DNA of 64,000 nt from Roseomonas sp. Lineage in GTDB: Bacteria; Pseudomonadota; Alphaproteobacteria; Acetobacterales; Acetobacteraceae. How positions within the stretch are numbered: the stretch's first letter is position 1; each line of letters opens with the position of its first letter. The position numbers were made by a program, and so were the translations under genes. Location of the stretch: NCBI GenBank assembly GCA_020249925.1, contig JADCER010000003.1, forward strand, positions 62,001 through 126,000, written 5' to 3'. Below are positions 6,055 to 38,524 of the stretch, one piece after another. Below the pieces are notes generated by a model. The model did not search any database. It had not been told where the DNA came from and worked only from the letters and a program-made list of their open reading frames with translations.

Positions 6055-7629
6055 ATGGCCTGGACCCCGCCGCGTCACACTTCCCAGCATTGGCATGTCA
6101 CAAAGCCCGCAGCCTCTGGCCGCAAGGGCATGGTGGCGTCCCAGGCGCGCGGCGCCGCCGAAGCGGGGGTCGCCATTCTGGAAGCCGGCGGTACGGCGGC
6201 CGATGCCGCGGTAGCCACGGCCTTTGCGCTGGCGACGCTGGAGCCCTGGAATAGCGGCCTGGGCGGCATTGGCTTCGCGCAAGTCATGTCCCCCGGCGGC
6301 GCGGCCGAGACCTTTGATTTCGGGCCGGTTTCCCCGCGCGGCTTGAAGCCTTCCGCCTTCCCCATGACCGGCAAGATGAAGGCGGATCTTTTCACCTGGC
6401 CGGAGGTGCTGGAAGACCGCAATGTGCATGGCCCGCTTTCCTTTGCCATCCCTTCGGCGGTTGCGGGCTATATGGAATTGCATGCGCGCCATGGCCGCAT
6501 GCCGATAAAGGACGTGCTGGCGCCGGCGGTGGCGCTGGCCAAGCGCGGCCTGGCGCAGGATTGGTTCACCACGCTGAAAGTGGCCAATTCGGCGTCCGTG
6601 CTGAAGCTTTATCCGGAATCCGCGCGCATCTATCTGCCGGGTGGGCTGCCACCCGTGGCGCCCTATCAAGGATCACCAGGCTTTTTCCAGCAAGGCAATC
6701 TGGCCGCCACGCTTGAACGCCTGGCCCATGCGGGGCTCGCTGATTTCTACACGGGCGATATCGCCGCCGCCATTGCCGCCGATTGCAAGGACATGGGCGC
6801 CTTTGTCAGCGCCGAGGATTTGGCGCATTGCAAGGCGCGCGTTGTGCCCGCACTTGAAGCCGCCTGGCGTGGCAAGCGGTTGTTTCTGGCCAACGGGCTG
6901 ACGGCTGCCCCCACCTTGATGCGGGTGCTGGATGGCATGCGCGATGCGGATTTCTCGGGCAAGGCGCCTTCGGCGGCTTGGTATGCGCAATTGGCCCGCG
7001 TCATGCGGGCTGCCTATGCGGAACGCTTGGCGGGGCTCGGGGATGCGGAACCGAAGGCGGCCGAATCCTGCACCACCCATCTGACGGTGGCGGACAAGAA
7101 CGGCATGATGGTCGCCATGACCACCACGCTGCTGTCCAGCATGGGCAGCCGCGTCGTGCTGCCGAAATCGGGCGTGCTGATGAACAATGGCGTGATGTGG
7201 TTCGACCCGCGCCCTGAAGCAGCCAATGCGCTGGCACCGGGCAAAAGGCCGCTCACGAATATGTGCCCGGTGATTGCCGCCGAGGGTGACAAACCCGTGC
7301 TGGCCACCGGTGCTTCCGGCGGGCGGCGCATCATGGCGTCTGTCTTCCAGATGCTGTCTTTCGTCGCCGATTTCGGCATGGAACCGGGACAGGCCGCGCA
7401 TCATCCAAGGCTTGATGTCTCAGCGCCTGAGGGTGTCACCGCCGATATCCGCCTCGGGGCGGAAACGCTGGCGGCGCTGGCCGCGGAAGATACGGTGACG
7501 GAGGTGGAACACGCCGTGCTGCCAGTCAATTTCGCCTGTCCCAATCTGATCCGCATCGGCGCCGATGGCACACGCACCGGCATTACCGATGTGATGAGTC
7601 CCTGGAGTGCGGCGATCGCCGAAGCGTAA
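6055..7629 (+). CDS. ggt: Gamma-glutamyltransferase family protein (Ntn hydrolase)
   Basis: The 524-aa product belongs to the gamma-glutamyltransferase/cephalosporin acylase family, in which a precursor cleaves itself to create an N-terminal Thr nucleophile. The signature ESCTTHLTVAD places the nucleophile at about Thr340, giving an N-terminal chain of about 339 residues and a C-terminal chain of about 185. Early motifs GMVASQARGAAEAG, GGTAADAAVAT and PWNSGLGGIGF are typical. No signal peptide is apparent from the ATG at 6055, so it is probably cytoplasmic, unlike E. coli Ggt. A family-5 ABC receptor gene follows after 21 nt, suggesting linked peptide uptake and breakdown. Confidence 0.9.
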   Translation: MAWTPPRHTSQHWHVTKPAASGRKGMVASQARGAAEAGVAILEAGGTAADAAVATAFALATLEPWNSGLGGIGFAQVMSPGGAAETFDFGPVSPRGLKPSAFPMTGKMKADLFTWPEVLEDRNVHGPLSFAIPSAVAGYMELHARHGRMPIKDVLAPAVALAKRGLAQDWFTTLKVANSASVLKLYPESARIYLPGGLPPVAPYQGSPGFFQQGNLAATLERLAHAGLADFYTGDIAAAIAADCKDMGAFVSAEDLAHCKARVVPALEAAWRGKRLFLANGLTAAPTLMRVLDGMRDADFSGKAPSAAWYAQLARVMRAAYAERLAGLGDAEPKAAESCTTHLTVADKNGMMVAMTTTLLSSMGSRVVLPKSGVLMNNGVMWFDPRPEAANALAPGKRPLTNMCPVIAAEGDKPVLATGASGGRRIMASVFQMLSFVADFGMEPGQAAHHPRLDVSAPEGVTADIRLGAETLAALAAEDTVTEVEHAVLPVNFACPNLIRIGADGTRTGITDVMSPWSAAIAEA

Positions 7630-9349: not shown

Positions 9350-11665
9350 TCAGGCTGCCCGCTGCGCCCGCAAGGCACGCCAGACCGCTTCCGGCGTGAT
9401 CGGCATATCAATATGCGCAACCCCCAGCGCATCACAGACCGCTGAGATAATGGCGGGCGGCGCACCGCAAGCGCCGCCCTCACCCGCGCCCTTCACGCCA
9501 AGATCATTGGATGGGCAAGGCACCACATTCAGATCAAGATTGAAGGAAGGCGCATCGCCCGCGCGCGGCATGCAGTAATCCTGGAAAGTCGCGGTCAGGA
9601 ATTGGCCGCTTTCCGGATCATATTGCGCATGTTCCAGCATGGCCTGACCAATGCCGGCCATGATGCCGCCATGGCATTGGCCATGCACCAGCATGGGGTT
9701 GATCGGCACGCCGACATCATCCACGGCCGCGTAATTGGCGATGGAGACTTCGCCGGTGGTGGGGTCAATCTCTACCTCCGCGACATGGCAGCCATTGGGG
9801 AAATTGCATTCCGTATCGCGCGTGTAAGTCAGTTGTTCGTCAAGTCCCGGCGTTTCACCCGGCGGCAGGCGCGCGGGGTCATGCGCGGCGGCAATCACCG
9901 CTTGCCAGCTTGTGGCGATATCGGTCCCCGCGACGCTGAAGCGGCCATTGAGGAATTCAATATCCGCAACCCCCGCTTCCAATAAATGCGCCGCGATGCG
10001 CTTGGCTTTTTCGATCACGAGCGCCGCCGCGCGGCTGGTGGCAACCCCGCCCATCTGGGACGAACGCGACCCGCCCGTGCCACCACCCTTCAGCACCACA
10101 TCCGAATCGCCCTGCACCAGATCAATCGCTTCAAAAGGCAGGCCAAGCTTTTCAGACAGGATTTGCGCAAAGGCCGTTTCATGCCCCTGCCCATGGCTGA
10201 ACGTGCCGACCGTGAGCTTGGCGCGTCCCTCAGGCGTTAACGCCACACGCGCCCATTCAAAAGGCTGGCCGCCTGAGGCTTCAATGAAATAGCCAAGCCC
10301 GATACCGCGTAGCTTGCCGTGCTTGGCGGCTACCGCACGGCGCGCGGCGAAACCCTGCCAATCCGCCAAGTTCAGCGCCATATCCTGGGTTTCCGCGAAG
10401 CGCCCGGAATCGATCACATTGCCGGCGACATTGCGATAGGGGATTTGATCCGGGCGGATGTAATTGCGCCGCCTGATTTCTTCCCGCCCAATGCCGAAAG
10501 CTGCGGCGCCTTGGTCAAACAAGCGTTCCAGCACATAGGCGGTTTCCGGCCGGCCAGCGCCGCGATAGGCATCGGTCGGCACTGTATTGGTAAAGACGCA
10601 GCGCACCTGCACATTCAAGGCCTGAAGGTCATAGACCGTACCATTGATGCGCCCGCCCGCCATGGTGGGCACGCGCGGGCCGAAATCCAACAAATAGGCG
10701 CCCATGGCGGCCAAGGTGCGAATACGCACGCCAATCGCCTTGGCGTTTTCATCAAAGGCCATTTCGGCATGCGTCACATGATCACGCCCATGCGGGTCTG
10801 ACAGAAAGGTCTCTGTCCGGCCCGCGCGCCATTTCACCGGCCGGCCAAGCTTGCGCGCCGCCCAAAGCACCATGGCGCTTTCCGGAAACAGCTTGCCGCG
10901 CAGGCCGAAACCGCCGCCGACATCGGGCGAGATGACGCGGATTTTTTCAAGCGGCACGTTGAAGACCAGCTTCGCGAGATTATCGCGTACCTTGACCGCG
11001 CCCTGGGATGGCGAAACCAGCGTCCAACGTTCCCCGTCCCAATCGCCGAGGGCAACACGCGGCTCCATCGGATTGCCGACAATGCGGTTCTGCACCAGAT
11101 CAACGGAGACGATACGCGCGGCACCGGTAAAAGCCTCATCCGCTTCCGCGGCGCGGCCGCTATCCCAATGGACGCAGAGATTGCTGCCCTGGTCTTCCCA
11201 GATCACTGGCGCGTCAGCATCAAGCGCCTTACCGGTTTCGGTAATGCTGGGCAGGGTTTCATAGTCAATCTGGATCAGCTCGGCCGCATCCATTGCCTGA
11301 TCACGGGTTTCCGCGACCACAAGTGCGACCGGGTCGCCCACATAGCGCACGCGTTCGGTTTGCAGGATATGGCGCGTGGGGGCGAAAAGCGGCTTGTCCT
11401 TGCCTGGCACTTCTACCTGCACCGGCAGCGCGCCAACGCCGTCAGCAATGGCGTCATGGCCGGTCAGCACCGCCAGCACCCCAGGGGCAGCGCGCGCTTC
11501 GCTGACATCCATGGAGATGATGCGCGCATGGGCATGCGGTGAGCGCAGCACCACCGCGTGGGCTTGGCCGGGGCGGTTCATGTCATCCGTATAGGTGCCG
11601 CGCCCTGTCAGCAGCCGCACATCTTCCTTGCGCCGTACCGGTTGACCAATGCCGAACTTATCCAT
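9350..11665 (-). CDS. Xanthine dehydrogenase-family molybdopterin-binding subunit
   Basis: The 771-aa protein is the large, molybdenum-cofactor subunit of the xanthine dehydrogenase/CO dehydrogenase family. Residues 1-150 form the small ab domain (RRKEDVRLLTGRGTYTDD). The cofactor domains follow, with DVGGGFG near residue 250, AYRGAGR at 366-372 and GAGEGGACGAPPAI near the C-terminus with the catalytic Glu. AYRGAGR is the form-II type, not the AYRCSFR loop of true CO dehydrogenase, so hydroxylation of an aromatic or N-heterocyclic compound is likelier. It is the last gene of the nine-gene leftward operon, 3 nt after the isochorismatase-fold gene. The 2Fe-2S and FAD subunits that normally accompany it are missing here. 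Confidence 0.9.
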   Translation of the reverse strand: MDKFGIGQPVRRKEDVRLLTGRGTYTDDMNRPGQAHAVVLRSPHAHARIISMDVSEARAAPGVLAVLTGHDAIADGVGALPVQVEVPGKDKPLFAPTRHILQTERVRYVGDPVALVVAETRDQAMDAAELIQIDYETLPSITETGKALDADAPVIWEDQGSNLCVHWDSGRAAEADEAFTGAARIVSVDLVQNRIVGNPMEPRVALGDWDGERWTLVSPSQGAVKVRDNLAKLVFNVPLEKIRVISPDVGGGFGLRGKLFPESAMVLWAARKLGRPVKWRAGRTETFLSDPHGRDHVTHAEMAFDENAKAIGVRIRTLAAMGAYLLDFGPRVPTMAGGRINGTVYDLQALNVQVRCVFTNTVPTDAYRGAGRPETAYVLERLFDQGAAAFGIGREEIRRRNYIRPDQIPYRNVAGNVIDSGRFAETQDMALNLADWQGFAARRAVAAKHGKLRGIGLGYFIEASGGQPFEWARVALTPEGRAKLTVGTFSHGQGHETAFAQILSEKLGLPFEAIDLVQGDSDVVLKGGGTGGSRSSQMGGVATSRAAALVIEKAKRIAAHLLEAGVADIEFLNGRFSVAGTDIATSWQAVIAAAHDPARLPPGETPGLDEQLTYTRDTECNFPNGCHVAEVEIDPTTGEVSIANYAAVDDVGVPINPMLVHGQCHGGIMAGIGQAMLEHAQYDPESGQFLTATFQDYCMPRAGDAPSFNLDLNVVPCPSNDLGVKGAGEGGACGAPPAIISAVCDALGVAHIDMPITPEAVWRALRAQRAA

Positions 11666-14334: not shown

Positions 14335-16022
14335 GATGCGCGCCTTCCGTAATCGCGGAACGCGGCTTCGGCGCTGACATAGCCAAGGCGGATATCACGC
14401 GCGATGGCCTCCATGGGCCGCGCGGCGGGGTCGCCCCAACCGCCACCGCCTGGGCTTTCCAGCCGCACGCGTTCACCCTGGCCGATGGAAACACCCACAA
14501 TCTTGCTTGCCATCGGCGGCGTTTCACCCGCTGCTCCCCAGGTGAAGCGATTAAGCGCACCATCCGCACCACCCGCCACACCAAAGGGCGCGAAACGCCC
14601 GCGTTCACCCAGCAAGGCGACTTCCGTGCGCCCCAGGGCCAGCGCCTCAATCTCATAAATCGCGCCAACACCGCCGCGATGTTCGCCAGCGCCGCCGCTA
14701 TCGGGGCGGAGCGCCCATTGCGTGAACATCACCGGATAGGCGGCTTCCAGAATCTCCACCGGCGGGATTGTCGCTGTTGAGATCGGGTTATTCGCGTGAT
14801 GCAAGCCATCGGTTGCGGGGTTGCCGCCAAGCCCGCCACCGAAGAAGGAAAACATCACCCAGCGCGTGCCATTTTCGCGCTGACCCGACAGCGCCAGCGC
14901 ATTGATGGTACCGAAAGGCGCGGCAGTCGCAGTGGCGGGGCGCGCCTTGCCCAGTGCGCCGAAAATCACGCCAATCAGGCGCAGAATGGTTTCGGTATAG
15001 CCAGCGACAGGGCGTGGTGCCTCCGCACCCAATAGCGTCGTCGGCGGTGCAATGACTTCCACCGGGCGAAGCACACCGGCATTGGCCGGCACGTCCGGGA
15101 AAGCGTGCTTGAGCGCAACATAACAAGCCGCCACCGTGGTTGCGACCGAGATATTGAGTGGCCCTGCGCAAGGCGGTGAGGAGCGCGACATATCCAGAGT
15201 CAGCCGATCACCTTCAACCGTCAGATCAAGCGCAATGCGCAGCGCTTCATCCTTCACGCCGTCATTATCCAGGAAATCATCGAAGCTATAGCGCCCATCG
15301 GGCAGGGCCGCGATTTCCGCGCGCATCAGCGCTTCCGCGCGATCGGCCAATTGCGCGAAGGCGGCGGCAATGCGCGCATCGCCGTAATCATCCAGCAATT
15401 CAATCAGCCGCTTTTCACCAAGATCGAGTGCATTCAACTGCCCATTCAAATCACCCCAATTGGATTGCGGCACGCGCGAATTCGCTGCCAGAATATCCAG
15501 AATATCCTGCTGCATCTGCCCGGCGCGGATCAGTTTTACGGGCGGGAAACGTACACCTTCCTGATGGCTTTCCGTTGCGCGCGGATTGTAATTGCCGGGC
15601 ACATTGCCGCCGATATCCAGCCAATGGCCAACACTCGCCACCCAGCAGAACAGCTTACCCGCGCGGAAAATTGGCCGCACCAGGCGGAAGTCATTCAAAT
15701 GCGTCCCGCCATCATAGGGGTCATTGAACAGGAAGGTATCGCCTTCCTGAAGCCCGCCTTCCGCCGCGACCTTGCGAATGACGGAACGCACGGCAAAGGA
15801 CATGGCGCCAACAAAAATCGGCAAGCCCTTGGTGCCCTGCACCAGAGTATCGCCGGTGATCGCATCATAAACGCCATGGCAGGCATCGCGCGCTTCGGCG
15901 ATGATCGGGTTGAAGGCGCTGCGATAAAGTGTCGCGTCCATCTCATCGGCGATTTGCTCAAGCCGGCCCTTCAGCACGGCCAGGGTCACGGCATCAAGGC
16001 GCGTCGTTACGGCTTCGGTCAT
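14331..16022 (-). CDS. hyuB: Hydantoinase/oxoprolinase subunit B
   Basis: The 563-aa protein is the HyuB partner: LAVLKGRLEQIADEMDATL at the N-terminus, FNDPYDGGTHLNDFRLVRP near residue 95, GDGRYSFDDFLDNDG-like central segment, and the Gly-rich C-terminal LESPGGGGWGDPAARP. I chose the ATG at 16022 (MTEAVTTRLDA), because an upstream in-frame ATG would run far into the preceding ATPase gene, whereas 16022 starts one base away from that gene's stop. Subunits A and B form the ATP-dependent cyclic-amide hydrolase. It lies directly downstream of the Liv-type ATPase in one transcription unit. Confidence 0.93.
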   Translation of the reverse strand: MTEAVTTRLDAVTLAVLKGRLEQIADEMDATLYRSAFNPIIAEARDACHGVYDAITGDTLVQGTKGLPIFVGAMSFAVRSVIRKVAAEGGLQEGDTFLFNDPYDGGTHLNDFRLVRPIFRAGKLFCWVASVGHWLDIGGNVPGNYNPRATESHQEGVRFPPVKLIRAGQMQQDILDILAANSRVPQSNWGDLNGQLNALDLGEKRLIELLDDYGDARIAAAFAQLADRAEALMRAEIAALPDGRYSFDDFLDNDGVKDEALRIALDLTVEGDRLTLDMSRSSPPCAGPLNISVATTVAACYVALKHAFPDVPANAGVLRPVEVIAPPTTLLGAEAPRPVAGYTETILRLIGVIFGALGKARPATATAAPFGTINALALSGQRENGTRWVMFSFFGGGLGGNPATDGLHHANNPISTATIPPVEILEAAYPVMFTQWALRPDSGGAGEHRGGVGAIYEIEALALGRTEVALLGERGRFAPFGVAGGADGALNRFTWGAAGETPPMASKIVGVSIGQGERVRLESPGGGGWGDPAARPMEAIARDIRLGYVSAEAAFRDYGRRAS

Positions 16023-16023
16023 C

Positions 16024-16725
16024 TCACAATCCAAGATAGCTGCGGCGCAATTCCGGATCGGCGGCGATATCGCGCGCGGCACCACTCAGGCTGATGACGC
16101 CATTTTCCAGCACATGCGCCTGATCCGCCACTTCCAGGCTTTGCGCAACATTCTGTTCCACCAGCATGATGGTGAGCCCATCCGCATGCAGGCGCCTTAT
16201 CAGCGTGAACATTTCCTCGACCAGCAAAGGCGAAAGGCCGAGGGAGGGTTCATCCAATATCAGCAGCTTCGGTTCCGCCATCAGCCCGCGCCCGATGGCG
16301 AGCATTTGCTGTTCGCCACCGGAAAGCGTGCCGGCGGCCTGGCGGGTTCGTTCCTTCAAGCGCGGGAAAATACCAAAGACGCGCTCCAGATTACGCGCAC
16401 GATTGCCCCGCGCACGGCGATAGGAACCAAGTTCCAGTACTTCGCGCACATTCAAATTCGGGAAAATCTTGCGGCCTTCCGGCACATGGATCAGGCCAAG
16501 CGACACGATCTCAGGTGGAGAAAGCGCGGCCAGGCTCTGCCCCGCGAAACGAATTTCCCCACCGCGCGGACGCACCACACCGCTGATGGTCATGTTCAGC
16601 GTTGTCTTGCCCGCACCATTGGCGCCGAGCACGGCCACCAACGCGCCTTCGGGGACACTCAGATCAATGCCCCGCAGGATCAGCGTTTCGCCATAGCCTG
16701 CTTCAAGCGCCTTGATTTCAAGCAT
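16024..16725 (-). CDS. livF: Branched-chain-type ABC transporter ATPase
   Basis: With the ATG at 16725 (MLEIKALEAGYGET) the protein is 233 aa, the normal LivF length, and overlaps livG by 8 nt. It has Walker A GANGAGKTT, signature LSGGEQQMLAIGRGLM, Walker B LLILDEPSLGLSP and the H-loop region TIMLVEQNVAQSLE. LivF is one of two ATPases energising uptake of hydrophobic amino acids or, in many paralogues, amides and urea. Fusion of this transporter operon to hyuBA suggests uptake of an amide or ureide. Confidence 0.95.
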   Translation of the reverse strand: MLEIKALEAGYGETLILRGIDLSVPEGALVAVLGANGAGKTTLNMTISGVVRPRGGEIRFAGQSLAALSPPEIVSLGLIHVPEGRKIFPNLNVREVLELGSYRRARGNRARNLERVFGIFPRLKERTRQAAGTLSGGEQQMLAIGRGLMAEPKLLILDEPSLGLSPLLVEEMFTLIRRLHADGLTIMLVEQNVAQSLEVADQAHVLENGVISLSGAARDIAADPELRRSYLGL

Positions 16726-30071: not shown

Positions 30072-30146
30072 GCCGGGTTAGCACAGGGGTAGTGCAGCTG
30101 ATTTGTAATCAGAAGGTCGGGGGTTCAAATCCCTCACCCGGCACCA
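30072..30146 (+). tRNA. tRNA-Thr (anticodon TGT)
   Basis: The acceptor stem GCCGGGT (30072-30078) pairs exactly with ACCCGGC (30136-30142), then discriminator A and an encoded CCA. The D stem is GCAC/GTGC, the anticodon loop TTTGTAA at 30102-30108 holds TGT (30104-30106), and the T arm carries GGTTCAAATCC. The 3' 50 nt of this gene is duplicated at 38475-38524, so the gene serves as the attachment site of an integrated element and is restored intact by the left junction. Confidence 0.93.
30097..30146 (+). repeat. attL, left copy of the 50-nt tRNA repeat
   Basis: This 50-nt tract (anticodon arm to CCA) is identical to 38475-38524. The flanking bases differ at both ends (A versus G before, T versus G after), which defines the repeat exactly. 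As the left copy retains the whole tRNA 5' half, integration kept the tRNA functional. Confidence 0.93.
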
Positions 30147-30184
30147 TTTTTCAATAGGTTAGCACCCTTCAAGACATGCCACTT

Positions 30185-30220
30185 GGGGCACATTTTTTCC
30201 GGGGGCACACCGGGGGCACA
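30185..30220 (+). promoter_or_regulatory. Integrase arm-site-like octamers, left cluster
   Basis: GGGGCACA occurs at 30185-30192, 30202-30209 and 30213-30220, 39 nt inside attL. The last two are 11 nt apart, one helical turn. The same octamer recurs five times near attR. The placement matches arm-type sites of tyrosine integrases or accessory bending protein sites. Confidence 0.6.
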
Positions 30221-30326
30221 TTTTTCGTGGGGACCCCCTTTGTCGGCCATGCCTCTGCCGCCCACCCAAATAGGCCCGAATCGCATCCACTGAAGCGCGC
30301 GTGGGATGCAGCCCGCCCCCTACCAG

Positions 30327-30608
30327 CCGGACGGCTGATCCCCGCCCCCCCCCCTTTGCAGTCGTCCGCAGGTGTCCGCCCGAGGCAGGCCCAAGCGCTT
30401 GATTTTGTTCAATCCCCGGACGACCGGACGGCTCGGACGACTTTTTCCCTACTTGCCTCTTTTGCATTGCTGCCACTCCCCCACTCTCCCTATTTTTTTT
30501 CAATGAAAGGATAGGGTCGTCCGGGCCGTCCGGGTCGTCCGGTATTGGCGGAAATCAAGGGTTCCAGAGGGTGCCCAGGTCGTCCGGGTGCCGTCCGCAC
30601 CCGTCCGC
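30327..30608. other. Iteron-flanked, pyrimidine-rich origin-like region
   Basis: A GTCCG-core repeat occurs in inverted form (CCGGACG at 30327-30333, 30416-30422 and 30424-30430; TCGGACG at 30433-30439) to the left of a pyrimidine-rich tract (about 30440-30500). On the right it is direct (CGTCCGG at 30518-30524, 30527-30533 and 30536-30542 with exact 9-nt spacing, again at 30581-30587; CGTCCGC at 30592-30598 and 30602-30608). CGTCCGC and TGTCCGC also lie at 30363-30379. Repeats in opposite orientation around a low-stability core are the layout of SaPI-type satellite origins. It is downstream of the primase/helicase genes, as expected for a replicator they act on. Confidence 0.6.
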
Positions 30609-30916
30609 AGATCGGCAATCGGGCGGCCATTCAGTGAACCAAGATTTCACCAATCGGGCATCCAAAAGCATTGGCGCGCATCGCCAGCGGCCAAGCCCAC
30701 CGGAAAATTTACCGTTTAACCTCAGAATTTCACCCCAAAACTAGGAAATCGCCGCGCGCCAGCTGCCCGCATACGGGGCAGGCCAGGAAGGACCCCAGGA
30801 AATTTTACGGTCCACCCCATTCTTTTGCGGGCGACGTGCGACCATCAGCCCAAGGGGGATAGGGGGAAATCCTGGCCTGGGCTTCAAGGGTGTGAAGCCC
30901 ATCAGGCTGATGCGCG

Positions 30917-31567
30917 TTAGAGGTGTGAAGGTGTGCACCCATCCACAACAGGCCAGGCCCAGCCGGGATCGGTCACGATACGCTGCGCCAGCGCCAACAT
31001 GCGCGCGGTGGGTTCGGGATCGGCTGTCACCTGATCCAGTAGCCGATCAATCTCCGGGCCAGTGATCAGCCCGCGCCGGAATAGCGCAGCCGCCACAGTC
31101 GCCACGGCTGAGGCATGGCGGACCAGCGTTGCATCCACCCAATCCACAACAAGCGGACCAATTGCCGACCCATGCAAGCCCATGGCGTAAAGCCGTTCAC
31201 TTGCGCCATACCACCCGCGCGAATCATCACGGCTCATGTTGCGGTAATGGCCAGCGTAGGGCTGCCAGGCGGCTTGCGGGCGCGTAGCCTCTCGCAGCGC
31301 TACCGCGCATCCACCCGCCGCATAGGATGCCATCAGGGCCAATTGCGCCCCCGCCGTTGCAGCGCGCGGCGCGGGGCCGGAAAGCCGGCGCCGGCTGCGC
31401 GTGGCGAGAATAGCCGCCTTGTCACTGTCAGGCGTCACCATGCCCCGCCCTTGGCGCGCTGTAGCGCGCGCAAGGGGAAACCCGAGTGATGCCATCACAA
31501 TGACGTGGCCAGCTTCATGCAGGGCGGCCAAAAGGGTTTGGCAGCCCTGGGCATGCGCCGTGATCAT
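30917..31567 (-). CDS. M41-like zinc peptidase domain protein (HEAGH)
   Basis: The 216-aa protein contains LLAALHEAGHVIVMASLGF, a zincin HExxH motif with His17, Glu18 and His21. After a spacer it has SYAAGGCAVALREAT and SRDDSRGWYGASERLYAM (Asp113/Asp114), the arrangement of the third acidic ligand and helix in the peptidase domain of FtsH (family M41). It lacks the AAA ATPase and membrane anchors of FtsH, so it is a stand-alone peptidase-like domain. The start overlaps the preceding gene by 4 nt (ATGA). It is the last gene of the element's leftward string. Target and activity are unknown. Confidence 0.7.
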   Translation of the reverse strand: MITAHAQGCQTLLAALHEAGHVIVMASLGFPLARATARQGRGMVTPDSDKAAILATRSRRRLSGPAPRAATAGAQLALMASYAAGGCAVALREATRPQAAWQPYAGHYRNMSRDDSRGWYGASERLYAMGLHGSAIGPLVVDWVDATLVRHASAVATVAAALFRRGLITGPEIDRLLDQVTADPEPTARMLALAQRIVTDPGWAWPVVDGCTPSHL

Positions 31568-32205
31568 TGACGGGGCTGCGCCAAATACCCGCCCGCGTGA
31601 TCCTGATGCGACCAGTAAGGCGCAGCCCCGTCAATGCGGGGCAGCACCAGGCGCGGGCCAAGGGGCTGCCGACTGAGGGTAACGCCAATCTCAGAGTCAT
31701 TCGGCACCATGTAGATTTCTGGCGACGGCTCCAGCCCCGCACGTTCATCTTCCGGCAATTCGAAAAAGGCGTAGTGACCGGCGCGCGCCGCGCGTATGGC
31801 TTCAGCTTCCAGCCTCAGGCCAGCGGCCAGCTTTTCGGCCAGGCCGGGATACTCAGATTCCAGAAATGCGCGCCAGCGGCCATTCGCCCTTTTGGCTTCA
31901 GAGAGCTTTGCCTTAAAGGCAGCCTTCCGGGCAGCGCGTTCAGTCTCGACAACACGGTTACGCAAAGCCTCTGCCAGCGCCGACGCGCGTTCAGCATCAT
32001 CGCGCGCCGAAGCGATGGCAATTTCATTGCGGGAGACTTCATCCGGCGTGCCATCCAACAATAAGCGCCCGCGTTGCGCGGTGAGGTTTTGCGCACGCGC
32101 GGCGGCTTCCCGCTGCGCTGCATCAGCCGCGACAATGGCCTCGGCCAATTCAGCCGGGGTGGCGGTAGATTTCGGGCGAATGCCGAGTAATTGCTTCAGG
32201 TTCAT
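31564..32205 (-). CDS. Unrecognised coiled-coil protein of the element
   Basis: From ATG 32205 (MNLKQLLGIRPK) the 213-aa protein has Ala/Glu/Arg-rich heptad-like stretches from about residue 20 to 140 (EAIVAADAAQREAAARAQNL, RDDAERASALAEALRNRVVE), a conserved-looking RRAFLESEYP-like segment, and a globular tail with EIYMVPNDSEIGVTLSRQP. I recognise no family. It overlaps the M41-like gene by 4 nt, so they are translationally coupled and may function together. Confidence 0.65.
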   Translation of the reverse strand: MNLKQLLGIRPKSTATPAELAEAIVAADAAQREAAARAQNLTAQRGRLLLDGTPDEVSRNEIAIASARDDAERASALAEALRNRVVETERAARKAAFKAKLSEAKRANGRWRAFLESEYPGLAEKLAAGLRLEAEAIRAARAGHYAFFELPEDERAGLEPSPEIYMVPNDSEIGVTLSRQPLGPRLVLPRIDGAAPYWSHQDHAGGYLAQPRQ

Positions 32206-32286
32206 CGCATCAGTTCCGTGCCGCAAGATTGCCGCGCCCAGCCGTGCGGCCAGCGGTATCGGGGCGGGATTTTGTGAAGGCGCAGG

Positions 32287-33819
32287 TCATGCCGTTTTTT
32301 TCAGGAACCAAAAACGGCTGCTATTCGTGCCACCTTTTCCAGGCACCATGTCCACCTGGTGCACCGTGCGCATGGCGGGTGCGATGCGCCTTAGCTTTTC
32401 GCCAAGCCCCACCGCACTTTTCGGCCAGAGGGTGCTTTTCCGCACATGATCCGGCGCCAGTTCCAGCAGCCGGTCATAAAGGGCTGTGGGGCTGCCCTTC
32501 CAATGATCAAGCCCAAGATCAGCCTGGGCTTGCAGCAGCTTCAGCACCGCTTGCGCGACATCATCAGCATCCAGCGCAACGCGATCGGCACCGGCACGAT
32601 TGGCCATCCAGGCGCGGGTGATCAAACCAGGCTCAATCCCGACCCCCGGCGCGCAGGCTTCAGCCCATGTGCAGGCATCCAGCATCCGGGGGCCAATCTC
32701 GATTTTCGTGGTCGGCAGATTGCGTAGGCCAGCGGCCAGGCCATCATAAAGCAGCCCAAGAAGCGCCGGGTGAAGCACCTCAAATTCGGCGAAAATCTCT
32801 ACCTCTTCACGCCTTTCGCCCTTGGGCAGCGGTTTCAATTCGAAGGCGATTGTGCGGTCCCGCATGTCATCGCGGCCAAGCAGGCCAGAGGGAATCCCGC
32901 CAAAGAGCATAGGCCGGCAAGCGGTGATGCTGAATTCCTCACCATCAGTATGCAGCGCGCGCGCAGAGTAACTACCCCCCGTGGCCAGCGGCGCAATCTG
33001 ATCAGCAAATTGGCCGGAGATGGTGCTTAGGTTATCGTAAGCGATAAGGTGCCGACGATTTGCAGAGACCCAAAAATCCCGCGGCTCCCGCGGCATGACG
33101 CGACCCGTCAGGCGGGAAGGATCAATCAGGGCTTGTAAAATTTTCAGGGCCTTCGATTTCCCAGTCCCTTGTTCACCATGCACCAGGCCGATGGGATACT
33201 GCCCCGCCCCATCCGAAAAGGGTCGCAAGGCAGCAAACAGATATGCCCAAAGCAGCGCTACATCATCATCCGTTTCGACATTCATCACGCGGCGAAGGTC
33301 GCCCCATTGGGCCTCGCCTTGCACTGGTTTGGGCAGCGGGAGTTGATCCTTGTCTCGCAGGAAGGTGACAGGCACATCCTTCGCCGGCGTGATGCACCAT
33401 CCTTCATCCGTGATGCGCACGGCGTCACGCTCGCCACCGGGGTCGCGTCCGCCGAGATCAATCCAGATTTCCCCATTATGCCCGGCGGTGCGGTGCCAGG
33501 TGGCGCGGACTTCACCGGCTGCCAAAGCCTTGCCCGCGGCCAGCGCGACCAGATCGGCAAGGGCCGTGGCAGAAATGCCGTCGCCATGCATCTGGAAATT
33601 CTTGATGCGCAGATGGCTCTCGAATTCGCGTGACGCGATGCGCACATGCTCCAAGTGCCCTTTCAGGTGCGGTAGCGATGCGTGCGGCGTTCCGTCATCC
33701 GTCACCCAAAATTCGATGCCTGCAAGTAGCAGCGCGCGTTCATCGCGGCGGTTTCGCTTTGCTGGTTTCTCGCCCTCCGGCGTGGCGGGTTCGCCGTCAT
33801 CCATCACGAATTCGCTCAT
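32287..33819 (-). CDS. Helicase-type replicative ATPase of the element
   Basis: The 510-aa protein (ATG 33819) has Walker A GEQGTGKSKA at about residues 215-224, Walker B-like HLIAYDN near 257-263, then STISGQFADQIAPLATGG and an arginine-bearing loop (GLLGRDDMRDRTIAFEL). This is the AAA+/superfamily-3-like ATPase found next to primases in prophages and satellites. The N-terminal 140 residues hold a Phe/His-rich segment likely to be DNA binding. It overlaps the primase gene by 4 nt (ATGA), giving a primase/helicase pair for element replication. I place it by motif, not by a named homologue. Confidence 0.75.
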   Translation of the reverse strand: MSEFVMDDGEPATPEGEKPAKRNRRDERALLLAGIEFWVTDDGTPHASLPHLKGHLEHVRIASREFESHLRIKNFQMHGDGISATALADLVALAAGKALAAGEVRATWHRTAGHNGEIWIDLGGRDPGGERDAVRITDEGWCITPAKDVPVTFLRDKDQLPLPKPVQGEAQWGDLRRVMNVETDDDVALLWAYLFAALRPFSDGAGQYPIGLVHGEQGTGKSKALKILQALIDPSRLTGRVMPREPRDFWVSANRRHLIAYDNLSTISGQFADQIAPLATGGSYSARALHTDGEEFSITACRPMLFGGIPSGLLGRDDMRDRTIAFELKPLPKGERREEVEIFAEFEVLHPALLGLLYDGLAAGLRNLPTTKIEIGPRMLDACTWAEACAPGVGIEPGLITRAWMANRAGADRVALDADDVAQAVLKLLQAQADLGLDHWKGSPTALYDRLLELAPDHVRKSTLWPKSAVGLGEKLRRIAPAMRTVHQVDMVPGKGGTNSSRFWFLKKTA

Positions 33820-34661
33820 GGTGCGGCACCCCCTCGCGCGCGCCATAGGTCGTTAAAATCGGCGCCGGGTGTTTGGGGCCGCGCGATTTTCACCGCCCGG
33901 CCTTCAGCCTTCCACCTCGCCAGCGCAGCGCGTGCCGCCTTCAGGCCAGGGCCATCATGATCAGCCGCCACCACGATTTCCTTGATGCTGGCCGGCAGTT
34001 TCAGCTTGAATTCCAAATTCGGCGCAGAGATTGCAGCCCAGGCCGGGGCACCCATCATCAGGCCGGCGCTGATGCTGGTTTCGATTCCCTCGCCAATAAC
34101 CAGCCGATCGGCAATTGGTGCCAGCCGCACCGCCGCGCCGGCAACTATGCCCAGGGTTTTGCGCGGCGTGGCGATCGGCGCCTTGCCTTTGCCATCCTGC
34201 GCGATGAATGTGCGGTGGATGGCCTGGGGGGTGCCCGCGCAGTCCACCATCAGCGCGACCATGACCGGCCAGCGCTTGCCGCCGTCACGGTCAAGATGAT
34301 TCGGCAGGAAGCGCAGCGGCATGTCATCGCGCAGCGTGATCCCGCGCGCGGTGAGGTATCGTTCCACCACCGTCCCCGCCGCTGGCAGCGCATCGGCCCA
34401 AAGCGCCAAAGCCCATTCGCGCTTTTGCACTTGGCTTGCATCAGCCGCCGCGGCCATCGGCGCGGCCTGCGCGGCCTGGCCTGAAATTGCAGCGGTGACG
34501 GCTGCCTGGTCTTGGCAGGCGCCGCACCACCATAAGGCTCGGCCATTCTGCGAGGTGATGCGCAGCGAATCCTTGTAACCGCATGCCGGGCATGTCCCGA
34601 TGAAAGCGCCAGCTTGCGCGCGCAGATTGAAGCGCCGCGCGATTTCTCGAATGTCAGTCAT
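33816..34661 (-). CDS. Zinc-finger/Toprim primase of the element
   Basis: Starting at 34661 (MTDIREIARRFNLR), the 281-aa protein has a CHC2-type zinc finger (Cys24, Cys27, Cys46, Cys49) and a Toprim domain: IGEGIETSISAG with Glu191/Glu194 and IVVAADHDGPGLKAA with Asp234/Asp236 binding the metals. This is the DnaG-like primase architecture without the DnaB-binding tail. It overlaps the 92-aa upstream gene by 8 nt and the helicase by 4 nt. Likely role: priming at the iteron region near 30.3-30.6 kb. Confidence 0.82.
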   Translation of the reverse strand: MTDIREIARRFNLRAQAGAFIGTCPACGYKDSLRITSQNGRALWWCGACQDQAAVTAAISGQAAQAAPMAAAADASQVQKREWALALWADALPAAGTVVERYLTARGITLRDDMPLRFLPNHLDRDGGKRWPVMVALMVDCAGTPQAIHRTFIAQDGKGKAPIATPRKTLGIVAGAAVRLAPIADRLVIGEGIETSISAGLMMGAPAWAAISAPNLEFKLKLPASIKEIVVAADHDGPGLKAARAALARWKAEGRAVKIARPQTPGADFNDLWRARGGAAP

Positions 34662-34932
34662 GAGGCACTGCCGGAAGATAGCGGCGCCACTCGTTGCGGT
34701 CGGCCTTGTCATCTTGCGCGGCGATGCTGGCCATAGCGGCCTTCAGCAGATCACGTTCGCAGCGGCGGCGTTCGGTGGCGGGGTCCCGGTTTTCTATCGC
34801 GTAGCGCAGGGCGCGGGCCTGCCCCCACCAGCGCGGCCGGCGGACTGGCGCCGGACCCGCAGTTAGCGCCGCGGCATGCGCCAGCAGCGCGCGCAGGCTC
34901 TCGGCCAGCGCATCATTCGCACGATAAGACAT
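34654..34932 (-). CDS. Unrecognised 92-aa protein of the element
   Basis: A basic, Arg- and Ala-rich helical protein (AESLRALLAHAAALTAG, RYAIENRDPATERRRCERDL). No motif is recognised. It is embedded in the replication gene block by an 8-nt overlap with the primase gene, which argues that it is real and may be a primase accessory factor. Confidence 0.55.
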   Translation of the reverse strand: MSYRANDALAESLRALLAHAAALTAGPAPVRRPRWWGQARALRYAIENRDPATERRRCERDLLKAAMASIAAQDDKADRNEWRRYLPAVPHD

Positions 34933-34941
34933 GGCGCAGAC

Positions 34942-35223
34942 TCAGGCCGCCGAATTCATGCGCGCCATGCGCCGGGCCGCGGCCTGGTTGCGTGGCAGGC
35001 AGCGGGTTTGTTCCATTGCGGCGCGAATTTCTGAGGCATACCAGCGCGGCGCGCGGGGCATAGGATAGACCGGCGCCGGCATGCGACCAGCCGCCACCGC
35101 GCGCCAGAATGCACCCAGAGACAAGCCCGCCACGGGTGCGGCGGCTTCAGCATCCAAGGGGATTTCAGCCGGGTTATGCTGCGCCGGGATGCTGGCGGTT
35201 TGGCTATGGGTATTCGGTTGCAT
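34942..35223 (-). CDS. AlpA-like helix-turn-helix regulator
   Basis: From ATG 35223 the 93-aa protein carries GLSLGAFWRAVAAGRMPAP followed by RAPRWYASEIRAAM, the MerR/AlpA winged helix (sensor of the form L...F...V..G..P.P....R...W...EI). AlpA-type proteins are transcription activators and excision-directing factors of P4-like satellites. It is upstream of the primase block. It may be the switch for integrase or replication genes. Confidence 0.65.
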   Translation of the reverse strand: MQPNTHSQTASIPAQHNPAEIPLDAEAAAPVAGLSLGAFWRAVAAGRMPAPVYPMPRAPRWYASEIRAAMEQTRCLPRNQAAARRMARMNSAA

Positions 35224-35313
35224 GGGTGGCGACACTCCTAATGATTCGGGAATGTCTCGCCATAGACAGCATGATTGGCGCAGAATCAAAATAAGGTTGG
35301 GCGGATTGCCGTC

Positions 35314-36021
35314 CTATCGGGGCGGGTCCAATTCAATACGCAATTGTTCCGCCGGACGGATGCTGAAGCCGTCACCACCCCCCTGAAAGATGCGCCGCGC
35401 ATCCTCAGCCTCGGCAACCAAGCGGCGCAGCCTTGCCTGGGGATCAGGCGCGCAGGCCAGCGCAGGCCAATCCCATGGCGAAACATCAGCCGCAAAGAAT
35501 GCCTCTTGCAGCGCATGGGCAAGGTGAAGGACGGGGCGGCTTTCTCGCCATTCACCTCGCATATTCATTGCCGTGTTTTCAGTCGCCACGAGCCCGCGCC
35601 GATAGAATTCAGCCTGTTCGGCACGGGCCGCAAGAATGCGGGCGAATCCTTCCAAGGTTTGCGTCACACCCTGCCCCTCGGGGCGCAGCATCATGCGCAG
35701 ACGCAATTCAAGCGCGGCGAAGCGGCGCATCATCAGCCTATGGCCGGTCAATTGGATCAGCTTGTCGCCATTTTCAGGCGTCATCTCTCGCCAAGCGGGG
35801 CGGCGAGGGAATATGCCATAGGCCCGAGTGTGCCAGGAAACCCGCACGCCATTCGCGCGTTCCATTCCTGCAATGAAGGCGGCCATGGCGCGATCAAAGG
35901 CAGCCGATTGCGCCCTGGTGCCGATCGGCGGCCAGGCGCAAGCGCAGATCAGCACGGCAATCGAAAGCCGTGCCAGTTCATCCGAATGGGCAAAGACGCG
36001 GATGGGGCTTTCTGCGATCAT
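35314..36021 (-). CDS. Unrecognised 235-aa protein of the element
   Basis: From ATG 36021 (MIAESPIRVFAHSDELARLS) the protein has no signal or membrane segment; it carries FDRAMAAFIAGMERANG, LTGHRLMMRRFAALELRLRM and a C-terminal GDGFSIRPAEQLRIEL. An upstream ATG at 36060 would extend it into a repeated DNA tract in a different frame, so I prefer 36021. I recognise no family and make no functional claim. Confidence 0.6.
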   Translation of the reverse strand: MIAESPIRVFAHSDELARLSIAVLICACAWPPIGTRAQSAAFDRAMAAFIAGMERANGVRVSWHTRAYGIFPRRPAWREMTPENGDKLIQLTGHRLMMRRFAALELRLRMMLRPEGQGVTQTLEGFARILAARAEQAEFYRRGLVATENTAMNMRGEWRESRPVLHLAHALQEAFFAADVSPWDWPALACAPDPQARLRRLVAEAEDARRIFQGGGDGFSIRPAEQLRIELDPPR

Positions 36022-36082
36022 GCTGCGCGGCGATTTCCAGCGGCACCAAAGGTCCGGCACCGCGCCGCTGATGTTCCGTCAT
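35978..36082 (-). CDS. 34-codon micro-ORF in the 50-nt repeat, overlapping a gene start
   Basis: ATG at 36082 reads MTEHQRRGAGPLVPLEIAAQ and stops at 35978. Its first 20 residues match EHQRRGGGPLVPLEITAAEE in the 65-aa protein at 36756-36953, in the same relative frame. It overlaps the 235-aa gene's start by 44 nt in another frame. It may be a duplicated fragment of the 65-aa gene or a leader peptide. Low support. Confidence 0.3.
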   Translation of the reverse strand: MTEHQRRGAGPLVPLEIAAQHDRRKPHPRLCPFG

Positions 36083-36867
36083 CAGCGGCGCAATTGATCA
36101 GCCGAGAAATCACGTCTTTGGAATGGTGGCCAATGCTGCCACCCATTCAGGTGGCAGATCGGGCGTTTTCGGAATGCTGCGCCCACAGTATTCCTCAAGC
36201 GATTCGCGCCGCGCGTCCGCTTCCATATTCGTGAACCAGCGCGGCGGCTCCCTATGCAGGATGGCCCGTAATTCTTCGGCGCGTGAATTCAGTTCAACCG
36301 CCAACCAGGTTATCGCCTGCTCCGTCCCGGTCCCTCTCTGGTCGGGATTGATGCAGGTCAGGTCAGACAGAATGGCGGTCATATGCGCGATGGGGCGGAC
36401 GAATTGCTCCAGCGTGCAATCATCCACAAAAGACGGCGCATTATGCGCCACCTTGGAAGGCTTGCGCCGCGGTGGGGAATTCGCCGGGGGCGGCGCAGGC
36501 ATGGCCGGCGGCTTGCCTGGGGGCGGCGATGCACCTGGTTCAAGGAAGGCTTCAGGCGATTGGCCGGGGTGATTTGCAGCGGTGGCGGGTTTCCGCTTGG
36601 CCGACTCACCATTATGGGGGGTTCTAGCTTCGCTTGGCATGGGTTCTCTCCATCCTTGTGAGGTCAGGCGGGGCAGGTGATACGAGCACCAGCCCCGCCG
36701 CTTTGATTGCCGGGGAAAGCGCCCCGGCGCGCATCTCTCGCAGCCGCCGCGCGTTTCAATGCGTGGTGGCCTTGCCTATGGCGGCTTCCACCGCCTGGTT
36801 AAGCGCTTCCTCTGCCGCGGTGATTTCCAGCGGCACCAAAGGCCCGCCACCGCGGCGCTGATGTTCC
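36027..36867. repeat. Imperfect 50-nt repeat pair inside the element
   Basis: About 50 nt at 36027-36077 (GATTTCCAGCGGCACCAAAGG followed by CGCGCCGCTGATGTTCC-type sequence) recur at 36816-36867 with a few substitutions. The copies lie 740 nt apart. The right copy is inside the 65-aa gene; the left copy is just upstream of the 235-aa gene. Confidence 0.7.
36110..36640 (-). CDS. Unrecognised 176-aa Pro-rich protein of the element
   Basis: The first 65 residues are low-complexity and Pro-rich (PPPGKPPAMPAPPPANSPPR), followed by a folded part with FVDDCTLEQFVRPIAHMTAI, ITWLAVELNSRAEELRAIL and PPRWFTNMEADARRESLEEY. No family is recognised. The order of a disordered tail then a helical domain could suit an adapter. 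It is followed by the 65-aa gene and integrase upstream. Confidence 0.55.
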   Translation of the reverse strand: MPSEARTPHNGESAKRKPATAANHPGQSPEAFLEPGASPPPGKPPAMPAPPPANSPPRRKPSKVAHNAPSFVDDCTLEQFVRPIAHMTAILSDLTCINPDQRGTGTEQAITWLAVELNSRAEELRAILHREPPRWFTNMEADARRESLEEYCGRSIPKTPDLPPEWVAALATIPKT

Positions 36868-36953
36868 AGCACCAACACGCGCAGGTGATCCGCCGCCACC
36901 TTCACCGCCGGGAAATCAGCTTCAAGGTCTCGGGTATAGCGGGGGTGGATCAT
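36756..36953 (-). CDS. 65-aa small protein coupled to integrase
   Basis: ATG 36953 overlaps the integrase stop by 4 nt (ATGA), arguing that it is translated from the int mRNA. The product (MIHPRYTRDLEADFP, VLVLEHQRRGGGPLVPLE, ITAAEEALNQAVEAAIGK) is small and helical. An excisionase-like or regulatory role is plausible from position only. It contains the right copy of the 50-nt internal repeat. Confidence 0.55.
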   Translation of the reverse strand: MIHPRYTRDLEADFPAVKVAADHLRVLVLEHQRRGGGPLVPLEITAAEEALNQAVEAAIGKATTH

Positions 36954-38245
36954 GCGCCGGCGCCTCTGGCGCGGCGGTCGGCCAGCGTGACCAGTTCCGC
37001 ACCCTGTCCGACCAGGCCCGCCACATGCCCCTGCCACAAGGTCAGGGCTGCAATGATTTCCTGAGCGTAGTTATGGCGTTCATATGTGCCGACCAGCCCG
37101 GCACGTCCGCCGATATGGTTGATGCTCGCCTCGGCATGCTCACGCGGCACACCAAGGCGGGTTAGGCCCGTCCGCACCGTGCGGCGCAGATCATGCCAGC
37201 GCCATGGCGCCAGGGCCGGCAAGCCCACCTTTGCGGCTTCACTGGCCATTGCGTCATCCACCCTTTCCTTCAGCTTGGAAAAGCCCCGGAAACCGGCGCT
37301 GCGCATCCGCCCAAGCAGGTGATGGCCGGGCCGCATGTCATCACTGGCAGGCCATACCGCGCGCAATTCCGCCAAGGCTGATGCGTTTAGCGGCACCGTA
37401 TAGCCGGCCTGGTTCTTTGTTCGCTCACCGGGGATAGACCAAAGGCCGGCGGCGAGATCAATTTCCCGGCACACCATATCGGCAACCTCAATCTCTCTGG
37501 CGCCAGTCAGGATCAGCAGCCGCACAAAGGCGCGCAGCTTTGGCGGCTCTCGGTTGGCGACACTCCAAAGCAGGGCAAGTTCCTGATCAGTCAAAACCCT
37601 ATCCCGCGGCTTTGGTGCGGGTGCCAGCGTGGCAGCGCCTTTGCGTGGCAGTAGGGGCAGGTCCACCAAACCCTGCGCCTCGGCATGGTTGAGGAAGGCG
37701 GAAACGACGCGATAGATCAGCGCTGCCATGGCGGGGGCGGTTTTCCGCTTTGCGGTGACTATCGCGGTCCAATCGGCGCGCGTGGTGTGCTTCAGCTTGC
37801 GCTTGCCCAGCTTGGGCAGAATGTAGCGGTCGGCAATGCGCGCCACTTCGGTTGAATGCCGGTCAGACCAGGGGTTATGCGCATCGGCCGCGCGATCGGC
37901 TTGCCATGCGGCCAGCGCCTCTTGCACGGTTTGCAGCCGCGATTCCTCTGCCCGCGCAGCGCGGGCGGCCTTGCGTTCCGCCGCGGGATCAGCGCCCAAG
38001 GTGACACTGGCCAGCATCTTCTTTGCTGTCTTGCGCGCATCGGCAATGCCCATCTCTGGCCAGGTGCCCATCTTCACGCGGGTTTGCTTTCCGCCCTTGG
38101 TGCGGGTGCGGATGCACCAGGTAGCCGCCCCGGTTGAGGTCATCCGCAGAACCAGGCCCGAGACTCGCGTGTCGCGAATCTCGACCCGCACCGCGGTGGG
38201 GGTCTCCAGGGTGCGAAGCCAAGCATCATTCAAATCGCGCTGCAT
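36950..38245 (-). CDS. int: Tyrosine-recombinase integrase (P4/DUF4102 type)
   Basis: The 431-aa protein has an N-terminal DUF4102-like DNA-binding region (residues 16-100, GLVLRMTSTGAATWCIRTRT), a SAM-like core-binding domain (about 105-200), and a catalytic domain with Arg250, Lys277, His351-Asp-Leu-Arg354, His377 and nucleophile Tyr388 (GTYERHNY). This complete RKHRH-Y set predicts activity. Its start faces attR across 229 nt of octamer sites. Insertion in tRNA-Thr fits the family. Confidence 0.9.
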   Translation of the reverse strand: MQRDLNDAWLRTLETPTAVRVEIRDTRVSGLVLRMTSTGAATWCIRTRTKGGKQTRVKMGTWPEMGIADARKTAKKMLASVTLGADPAAERKAARAARAEESRLQTVQEALAAWQADRAADAHNPWSDRHSTEVARIADRYILPKLGKRKLKHTTRADWTAIVTAKRKTAPAMAALIYRVVSAFLNHAEAQGLVDLPLLPRKGAATLAPAPKPRDRVLTDQELALLWSVANREPPKLRAFVRLLILTGAREIEVADMVCREIDLAAGLWSIPGERTKNQAGYTVPLNASALAELRAVWPASDDMRPGHHLLGRMRSAGFRGFSKLKERVDDAMASEAAKVGLPALAPWRWHDLRRTVRTGLTRLGVPREHAEASINHIGGRAGLVGTYERHNYAQEIIAALTLWQGHVAGLVGQGAELVTLADRRARGAGA

Positions 38246-38474
38246 CAGCCCATTGCCCTTTCCGGTCCACGATGTGCCCCAGTCAGTTTATCGCAGGGTA
38301 TGTGCCCCCGTTTTCGAGTTTCTGGGGCACAAAACCGCGCGGGGGCACATTGGGGGCACAAAATATGCGCGATGCTGGGGCATTGCAAGTTATTCCCGAA
38401 AATTAGCGGTGATGTATTTCAAAGGAAAGTTTTCGAGGTGGAATTTTTCGGCCCCACCCGGCGGGACAATATCG
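38246..38474. promoter_or_regulatory. Integrase upstream region
   Basis: The 229 nt between the integrase start and attR carry five octamer sites and presumably the int promoter. Part of it, around 38400-38440, is AT-rich (TATTTCAAAGGAAAGTTTTC). No gene is seen. Confidence 0.45.
38273..38360. promoter_or_regulatory. Integrase arm-site-like octamers, right cluster
   Basis: Between the integrase start and attR lie two inverted copies (TGTGCCCC at 38273-38280 and 38301-38308) and three direct copies (GGGGCACA at 38324-38331, 38342-38349 and 38353-38360). The last two repeat the 11-nt spacing seen on the left. These 229 nt also must carry the integrase promoter, so the sites could autoregulate int. 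Confidence 0.6.
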
Positions 38475-38524
38475 GCTGATTTGTAATCAGAAGGTCGGGG
38501 GTTCAAATCCCTCACCCGGCACCA
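38475..38524 (+). repeat. attR, right copy of the 50-nt tRNA repeat
   Basis: The second copy of the tRNA-Thr 3' half. It lacks the 5' acceptor strand and D arm, so it is not a tRNA gene. Host sequence resumes at 38525. Confidence 0.93.

Follow-up and report, generated by a model that had tools for sequence, protein, structure and literature searches.

The 64-kb window (the whole stretch of DNA analysed here, 64,000 nucleotides) contains an island of 8,378 bp, at 30097-38474, inserted in a tRNA-Thr gene. This tRNA-Thr (TGT) gene, recognised by both ARAGORN and Rfam, lies at 30072-30146 on the plus strand, and ends in the left copy (30097-30146) of an exact 50-bp attachment repeat whose right copy is found at 38475-38524 on the same strand. 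Two genomes of the same genus (L189 and L190) carry the empty site, in which the DNA left of 30146 joins that right of 38475, with flanks of 95-97% identity and the same 50 bp common to both sides; the 8,378 bp are therefore an insertion. An Rfam search found no known RNA other than tRNA.

Read from the far end, the island encodes a tyrosine integrase identified by family matches (36950-38245), several small ORFs, an AlpA-like small DNA-binding protein (34942-35289), a TOPRIM primase (33816-34712; DUF7146 plus Toprim_3, phrog_510) and, as a separate protein, an AAA+ ATPase of 519 aa (32287-33846). After the ATPase come an ORF of 220 aa (31564-32226), with a homologue beside the ATPase in the related islands L043 and L217, and an ORF of 216 aa (30917-31567), in which we noticed by eye a HEAGH motif and which has no Pfam or PHROG match; these are followed by a cluster of short repeats and the tRNA. 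The integrase, AlpA-like, primase and ATPase genes and the two ORFs after the ATPase are on the minus strand, and the first four keep the same order in L043 and L217. The AlpA-like protein is 55-64% identical in six relatives and its sole family match is a weak one to phrog_597 ‘DNA binding protein’; the designation AlpA-like is our own reading. Among the ten window ORFs scanned, none matched a phage structural or lytic gene. The ATPase, the putative initiator helicase of the island, matches no Pfam family above the cut-off. It is a candidate remote relative of the D5/DUF5906 helicases (hhalign probability 85, E 6.6e-6 over 238 columns), while a profile search against the PDB returned mostly ABC-transporter P-loops among the best 60 of 103 matches at E ≤ 10. 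A second relative of the primase, 39% identical, is encoded elsewhere in the window's genome (G000:C24:435057-435647; L201), perhaps in another island, and a genome of the window's genus contains a match of 62 residues to the ATPase (G267:C45:12521-12703; L027), perhaps a remnant.

The repeat cluster occupies 30327-30608. Within these 282 bp the hexamer CGTCCG or its complement CGGACG occurs 11 times, out of 36 occurrences in the 64 kb, and the copies fall into four modules around a core. The inner left arm (30398-30439) holds a triad of CGGACG starting at 30417, 30425 and 30434, spaced by 8 and 9 nt, and its outer end, CTTGATTT, pairs with the other arm. The inner right arm (30518-30559) holds a triad of CGTCCG at 30518, 30527 and 30536, in exact 9-nt tandem, and terminates in AAATCAAG. 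The three repeats on either side are thus opposed across a core of 78 nt (30440-30517). Further out lie a degenerate module, D (30327-30379), with CGGACG at 30328, CGTCCG at 30363 and a near match, GTGTCCGC, at 30372-30379, and a module A (30581-30608), with CGTCCG at 30581, 30592 and 30602. A preliminary description of the locus had placed CCGGACG-type repeats left of the core and CGTCCGG-type repeats right of it, three of them in exact 9-nt tandem. The right side is as described; on the left four copies agree and the copy at 30363 points the opposite way, so the original wording was slightly too neat there.

The core had also been described as pyrimidine-rich and of low stability, and both properties were recovered. 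Its first 64 nt (30440-30503) are 81% pyrimidine, and among windows of 78 nt the core is less stable than 99.6% across the 64 kb and 99.9% within the island. With an A+T content of 56% the core is properly called unstable, but ‘AT-rich’ would apply only relative to its surroundings. GC skew at the site was uninformative.

Simple tandem duplication of 9-mers is common, and low-complexity repeats arising by chance or drifting tandem duplications without function might have produced such a cluster. However, when the 64 kb were dinucleotide-shuffled 200 times, no CGTCCG/CGGACG cluster exceeded 5 copies, as against the 11 observed. Of the 6 places at which the 10-mer GGTCGTCCGG is found in the 3.94-Mb genome, 4 are in the cluster, whereas the same word read backwards is found at 51. 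When opposed tandem pairs of any 6-mer were sought throughout the 64 kb, the sole match was 30416-30602.

The window's ATPase was then used as a query, giving matches at three taxonomic levels: in 24 of 299 family genomes, in 20 of 395 from the order and in 13 of 385 from the class (the window's own genome is included and the draws overlap); scanning genome contigs and viral contigs with this single sequence yielded no relatives. In three of the islands found (L043, L217 and L218; ATPases 41-52% identical) the mirrored arms and the core are present in the same orientation to the ATPase. L043, from Falsiroseomonas (Roseomonas) oleicola and identical to NZ_JAERQM010000003.1 over the 900 bases compared, has an integrase 53% and an ATPase 45% identical to those of the window and uses the same repeat word in the same modules: three CGGACG, three CGGACG, the core, three CGTCCG and three CGGACG. 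Read in the ATPase sense, its origin region aligns with that of the window through all modules. L217 (ATPase 52%, integrase 53% identical) is bounded by its own attachment repeat at 7301 and 15388 and, at the expected place about 300 bp inside the end of a tRNA-Gly, has the arms GGTCGACCCGGACGCGGCTGGCG and CGCCAGCCGCGTCCGGGTCGACC around a pyrimidine core; its arms are mirrored and its direct repeats degenerate. In L218, from the same genus (ATPase 41% identical by local tblastn, 44% in another search), CGTCAC-type triads and outer triads of ATGTCAGCG lie about 0.8 kb 3′ of the ATPase. Each island has a repeat word of its own, which the two arms carry in mirror image, and all four share TAGGRAAAA directly before the distal triad in the ATPase sense.

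The site is at the attachment end in the window, L043 and L217, and its distance from the ATPase is 0.8 kb in L218, 1.7 kb in the window and L217 and 6.4 kb in L043. The preliminary description had put it at the end of the primase/helicase block, which holds for the order of the genes; two ORFs and about 1.7 kb nevertheless lie between it and the ATPase stop at 32287.

Profiles built from three of the four sites returned the missing one as the best match in its own 16-64 kb (E 2.2e-14 for the window over 64 kb, 1.5e-20 for L043, 5.8e-11 for L217 and 8.6e-10 for L218). Profiles of the core alone recovered three of the four sites and missed that of the window; without its iterons the core is weakly conserved, 67 of 2000 shuffles reaching the score of window against L043. 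An ATPase 46% identical is encoded in G106 (L044) next to a tRNA end and TGTGCCCC repeats, yet no origin-like site was found there; CTGGCC repeats in this locus were rejected as spread-out simple repeats. No site was present on the ATPase contigs L040 (G285) and L039 (G241), and L039, L041 and L042 have little downstream DNA. A repeat finder allowing one mismatch was too unspecific for use.

Because other islands with a homologous ATPase share this layout, we consider it very probable that the island, an integrative, PICI-like element of 8.4 kb, replicates from an origin at 30327-30608, with the ATPase binding the iterons and the mirrored triads serving to melt the core. The reading draws on computed features, namely the repeats and the mirror symmetry of their arrangement, the low stability of the core, the borders of the island and its empty site, the conserved arrangement and a partial linkage to the ATPase family.

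As the repeats adjoin the attachment site, we considered whether they could instead be arm-type sites for the integrase or excisionase in site-specific recombination. The distance between the tRNA end and the start of the cluster is 181 bp in the window and 139 bp in L043. However, a different repeat is placed as arm sites should be, beside the attachment core at both ends of the window, L043 and L217 islands. The 64 kb of the window contain 8 copies of TGTGCCCC, and each of them lies at one end or the other of the island: three TGTGCCCC/GGGGCACA repeats at 30185-30220, outside the putative origin, and five at 38273-38360. At least eight copies arose in 4 of 100 shuffles, so the count alone is not very unusual, and it is the placement that recurs, at 828-878 and 16669-16705 in L043 and at 7402-7420 and 15249-15364 in L217. 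TGTGCCCC also adjoins the tRNA in L044 and in L239 (position 8087). It is kept in the window, L043 and L217 along with integrases roughly 53% identical, and it stays constant while the iteron words vary between islands; in distant islands, moreover, the iterons remain with the ATPase, kilobases from the integrase and the tRNA. The TGTGCCCC/GGGGCACA repeats are probably the integrase arm sites, apart from the iterons, and we rejected the CGTCCG cluster for that role, which we regard as highly improbable.

L043 carries head-protease-like and small-terminase-like genes (10608-11228 and 15591-16157), and for this reason the element may be a phage satellite with capsid genes. The second of these products, encoded about 200 bp from the repeat cluster, matches a small terminase subunit family (phrog_57, E 1e-10), which would suit a pac or cos site, that is, a packaging or terminase recognition site of the satellite. 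The same protein also matches excisionases (phrog_66, E 0.001), though, and its sole Pfam match is a sub-threshold HTH; none of the ten window ORFs tested matched a terminase, and in part of the wider family the repeats adjoin the helicase gene. We hold a packaging site to be very improbable.

As a test of prediction, a sequence-only model of the four sites (window, L043, L217 and L218) was run on 397 genomes of the family at E ≤ 0.01. Fourteen genomes matched, the four used for training and ten others. The best two of the new ones, G285 (3e-9) and G244 (2e-8), both encode close ATPases (48-49% identical) on other contigs, which had been found by protein search before the model was run, and at both sites the triads are opposed and consist of new words, CGTCAG and CGCCAG. 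In G244 a distance of 327 bp, with one TGTGCCCC within it, separates the site from the end of a tRNA-Arg, and no attachment repeat was found in its contig piece; on the G285 contig, distinct from that of the ATPase, there is no tRNA or TGTGCCCC near the site. Opposed triads were also present in G245 (6e-5) and G141 (1.5e-3), making four of the ten, and here GCGTCA-type triads are at the 3′ end of a VapE/DUF5906 helicase rather than a member of the window's ATPase family. The remaining six genomes and a second match in G285 have no opposed triads. The matches without triads include one in G366 at the end of a TonB-receptor gene and those in L230-L234 and L237; all of these are weak (E 4e-4 to 9e-3), and we take them to be chance. 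A strict pattern of the repeat words was found in two of the 397 genomes, the window's and G231, both with an ATPase island, and in one of 35 genomes of the genus, the window's own; the reversed control pattern was found in none of the 397.

Seven sites could be tested for symmetry of the arms. The 30-nt arms agree with their mirror partners at 22, 29, 26, 26, 26, 25 and 22 positions out of 30, even though the arm sequences vary from one island to another, and of 1,486 random arm placements in the window none reached 22, the maximum being 20. The shuffles and word counts given above, the absence of the reversed pattern from the family, the leave-one-out recovery, the matches in new genomes and this symmetry together refute chance, for which we see a negligible probability; the refutation does not prove function.

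The arms match beyond the iterons in several islands, and the inner 162-nt unit of the window folds as single-stranded DNA with z = -6.7, as might be expected if the arms formed a long hairpin or cruciform, serving single-strand initiation or as a conjugative nick site, rather than iterons read by a protein. Against this, the phased triads are kept while the words change, L217 excepted. Iterons beside the core are spaced by 9 nt in the sites mapped, apart from L242 with 10 nt on one side; further from the core the spacing is 7-9 nt and in some sites mirrored. The spacer between the arms is 75-92 nt, which also speaks against a hairpin, and none of the ten window ORFs tested matched a relaxase or rolling-circle Rep. 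A structural role of this kind is improbable in our estimation.

The ATPase family was extended to 106 loci, 26 from genomes of the family or plasmids and 80 viral (the best 80 of 198), near-duplicates included; the viral relatives were found with an alignment of the ATPase family rather than with the window's ATPase alone. Opposed iterons were present between -120 and +480 of the 3′ end of the ATPase match in 37 of the 106 loci (15 of 26 and 22 of 80), a search space of 63 kb in total, compared with 16 clusters in the 1,035 kb elsewhere in the same loci; the other 69 have no detectable cluster at the 3′ end. CGTC is contained in 27 of 38 consensus iteron words, those of the window and L043 included. 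At several loci the ATPase reading frame stays open across the iterons, among them L046, L047, L050, L051 and L053 of the sister group, in which the sequence between the repeats contains a CTAACCCATTGAAAA-like motif. The k-mers conserved across this wider set came mainly from near-duplicate viral loci, with a CCATTGAAA motif in part of the sister group.

We also asked how far the iteron word follows the ATPase sequence, using 38 loci (the near-duplicate L117 was dropped) and the 595 of 703 pairs with enough overlap. Similarity of the iterons correlated with that of the C-terminal part of the ATPase at rho 0.25 (0 of 300 permutations as high), with that of the AAA part at 0.23 (3 of 300) and with that of the N-terminal part at 0.20 (5 of 300); the partial r was 0.12 for the C-terminal part against 0.05 and 0.06 for the others. 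The word thus follows the ATPase weakly and in a manner hardly specific to the C-terminal part.

This weak correlation leaves some room for an origin whose iterons are read by the AlpA-like protein, the 220-aa product (31564-32226) or a host factor, with the ATPase acting just as the helicase. In the clade of the window the site is set apart from the ATPase gene, and a homologue of the 220-aa protein follows the ATPase in the window, L043 and L217, as such a reader might. In part of the wider family, on the other hand, the iterons are at the 3′ end of the ATPase gene, a tblastn search of 13 sister-group stretches (L045-L057) found no homologue of the 220-aa gene, and the SaPI and SCC helicases themselves bind their iterons (PMC7581432). 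Another reader is in our judgement unlikely, and we infer that the ATPase, rather than another island protein, recognises the iterons.

With the ATPase as initiator, the island would excise, the ATPase (32287-33846) would bind the 9-nt iterons, and two of its oligomers, one on each of the mirrored triads, would melt the pyrimidine-rich core that the triads enclose; priming of synthesis would then fall to the separate TOPRIM primase (33816-34712). The outer repeats would probably help to load or regulate the complex, and the island may depend on a helper phage. Two oligomers opening a core from mirrored iterons have been proposed for the SaPI and SCC helicases in PMC7581432, which also assigns iteron reading in SaPI Rep to its C-terminal domain.

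The preliminary description had called the site a SaPI-like origin. According to PMC6092414, the origin of a PICI consists of an AT-rich region between two sets of iterons and is positioned immediately 3′ of rep. The opposed short iteron sets around a weakly paired core are shared with the SaPIs and Gram-negative PICIs as these sources present them, as are an element-encoded primase and initiator helicase and a small island with an integrase and an AlpA-like regulator. In contrast to PICIs, the site is 0.8-6.4 kb from the ATPase and at the attachment end in the window, L043 and L217; a position directly 3′ of the helicase gene, which the window does not show, occurs in part of the wider ATPase family. 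The island, at 8,378 bp, is also smaller than the 12-15 kb of PICIs, its ATPase has no Pfam family above threshold and is separate from the primase, and the core between its two iteron sets is just 56% A+T, although locally unstable. The organisation into integrase, replication module and master regulator agrees with that of PICIs, with the AlpA assignment depending on a weak match, and structural and lytic genes are absent among the ten window ORFs scanned. Two further characters of PICIs are an attachment site never used by prophages, where the island has an empty counterpart in relatives, and induction and packaging by a helper phage. The island shares some of the characters of PICIs and departs from them in size and origin position. 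It resembles a phage satellite of PICI-like type, and the conserved layout with a homologous ATPase supports a putative origin that would work like that of SaPIs and PICIs; a place directly downstream of rep does not apply, and membership of either group is not implied.

Other known systems share parts of this arrangement. The SCCmec element with Cch2, as portrayed in PMC7581432, has a D5-type helicase that recognises iterons (AAGTG) downstream of its gene and a separate primase, and differs in being a staphylococcal cassette for which that account reports just three iterons. PICMIs (PMC10803314) are likewise minimal islands with an integrase, AlpA and a primase and without capsid remodelling genes, but they belong to Vibrionaceae, their prototype is at fis, and their primase model includes DUF3987/DUF5906. 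The general kind of origin is thus known from phage satellites, whereas the position, the ATPase family and the switching repeat words look new; we found no described satellite origin from the host's bacterial family in the open-access literature. For an AAA+ ATPase family that reaches the threshold of no Pfam model, the site offers a putative origin and initiator that can be tested as a pair, and islands with the same layout and different words could show which part of the initiator helicase reads the iterons. Its place beside the attachment site raises the question of a coupling between excision and the start of replication.

The architecture was also searched for by itself. The pattern CGGACGNNNCGGACG-(65-95)-CGTCCGNNNCGTCCG was found in 31 stretches of genome contigs and 7 of viral contigs; one of these 38 loci (L071, 271 bp) was too short for an ORF test and was dropped, leaving 37. 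With GCAGGC, a control word of the same composition, 8 viral stretches matched as compared with 7 for the real word, and we therefore rejected the number of matches as evidence; this control was confined to viral contigs, so the rate of the real word in genome contigs is not strictly comparable. The information is in the neighbourhood of the pattern and not in its count. Among the 37 loci, the longest ORF within 1 kb matched DUF5906 in 11, and the window's ATPase family occurs at three of the 38 (L059, L076 and L093). At the eight control loci the longest ORFs comprised 5 collagen-like proteins, which are not independent since 4 of the other 7 ORFs are 100% identical to the first, and 1 D5 helicase. 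The D5 helicase locus is the viral L099, where opposed GCAGGC repeats found with the control pattern (about 2630-2738) start 10 nt after the gene.

At the D5/DUF5906 loci (from Verrucomicrobiota, Pirellulaceae, Chlamydiia and a viral contig) opposed CGGACG/CGTCCG repeats near the 3′ end of the helicase gene resemble those of the window, but they are mostly two plus two and the proteins are different, from a remotely related helicase family. In eight DUF5906 loci the pattern starts 13-129 nt past the gene end in five, overlaps the gene in one and starts at 346 and 562 nt in two. More broadly, one could tentatively envisage a widespread modular origin, a generalisation that we think possible but somewhat less than evenly probable: triads phased at 8-9 nt, with a CGTC-like core word, would be mirrored around a purine/pyrimidine-skewed core, with an element-specific word changed together on both arms, and would serve at least three helicase families (the present ATPase family, D5/DUF5906 and VapE) in several phyla. 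In the island clade of the window the origin would have lost its link to the helicase gene and moved to the attachment site. If this were true, pairs of word and helicase would amount to a natural code for origin recognition by such helicases.

Seven of the loci found by architecture (L060, L066, L070, L074, L078, L083 and L092), from Verrucomicrobia, Chlamydiia, a Planctomycete and related contigs and one viral contig, have the CGGACG/CGTCCG arrangement adjoining a large primase-helicase-like ORF, with DUF5906 in six and just a DnaG zinc finger in L066. A contig of Planctomycetaceae (L072) carries at 5918-6234 a dense array of about 32 CGTCCG, mostly at 9-10-nt spacing.
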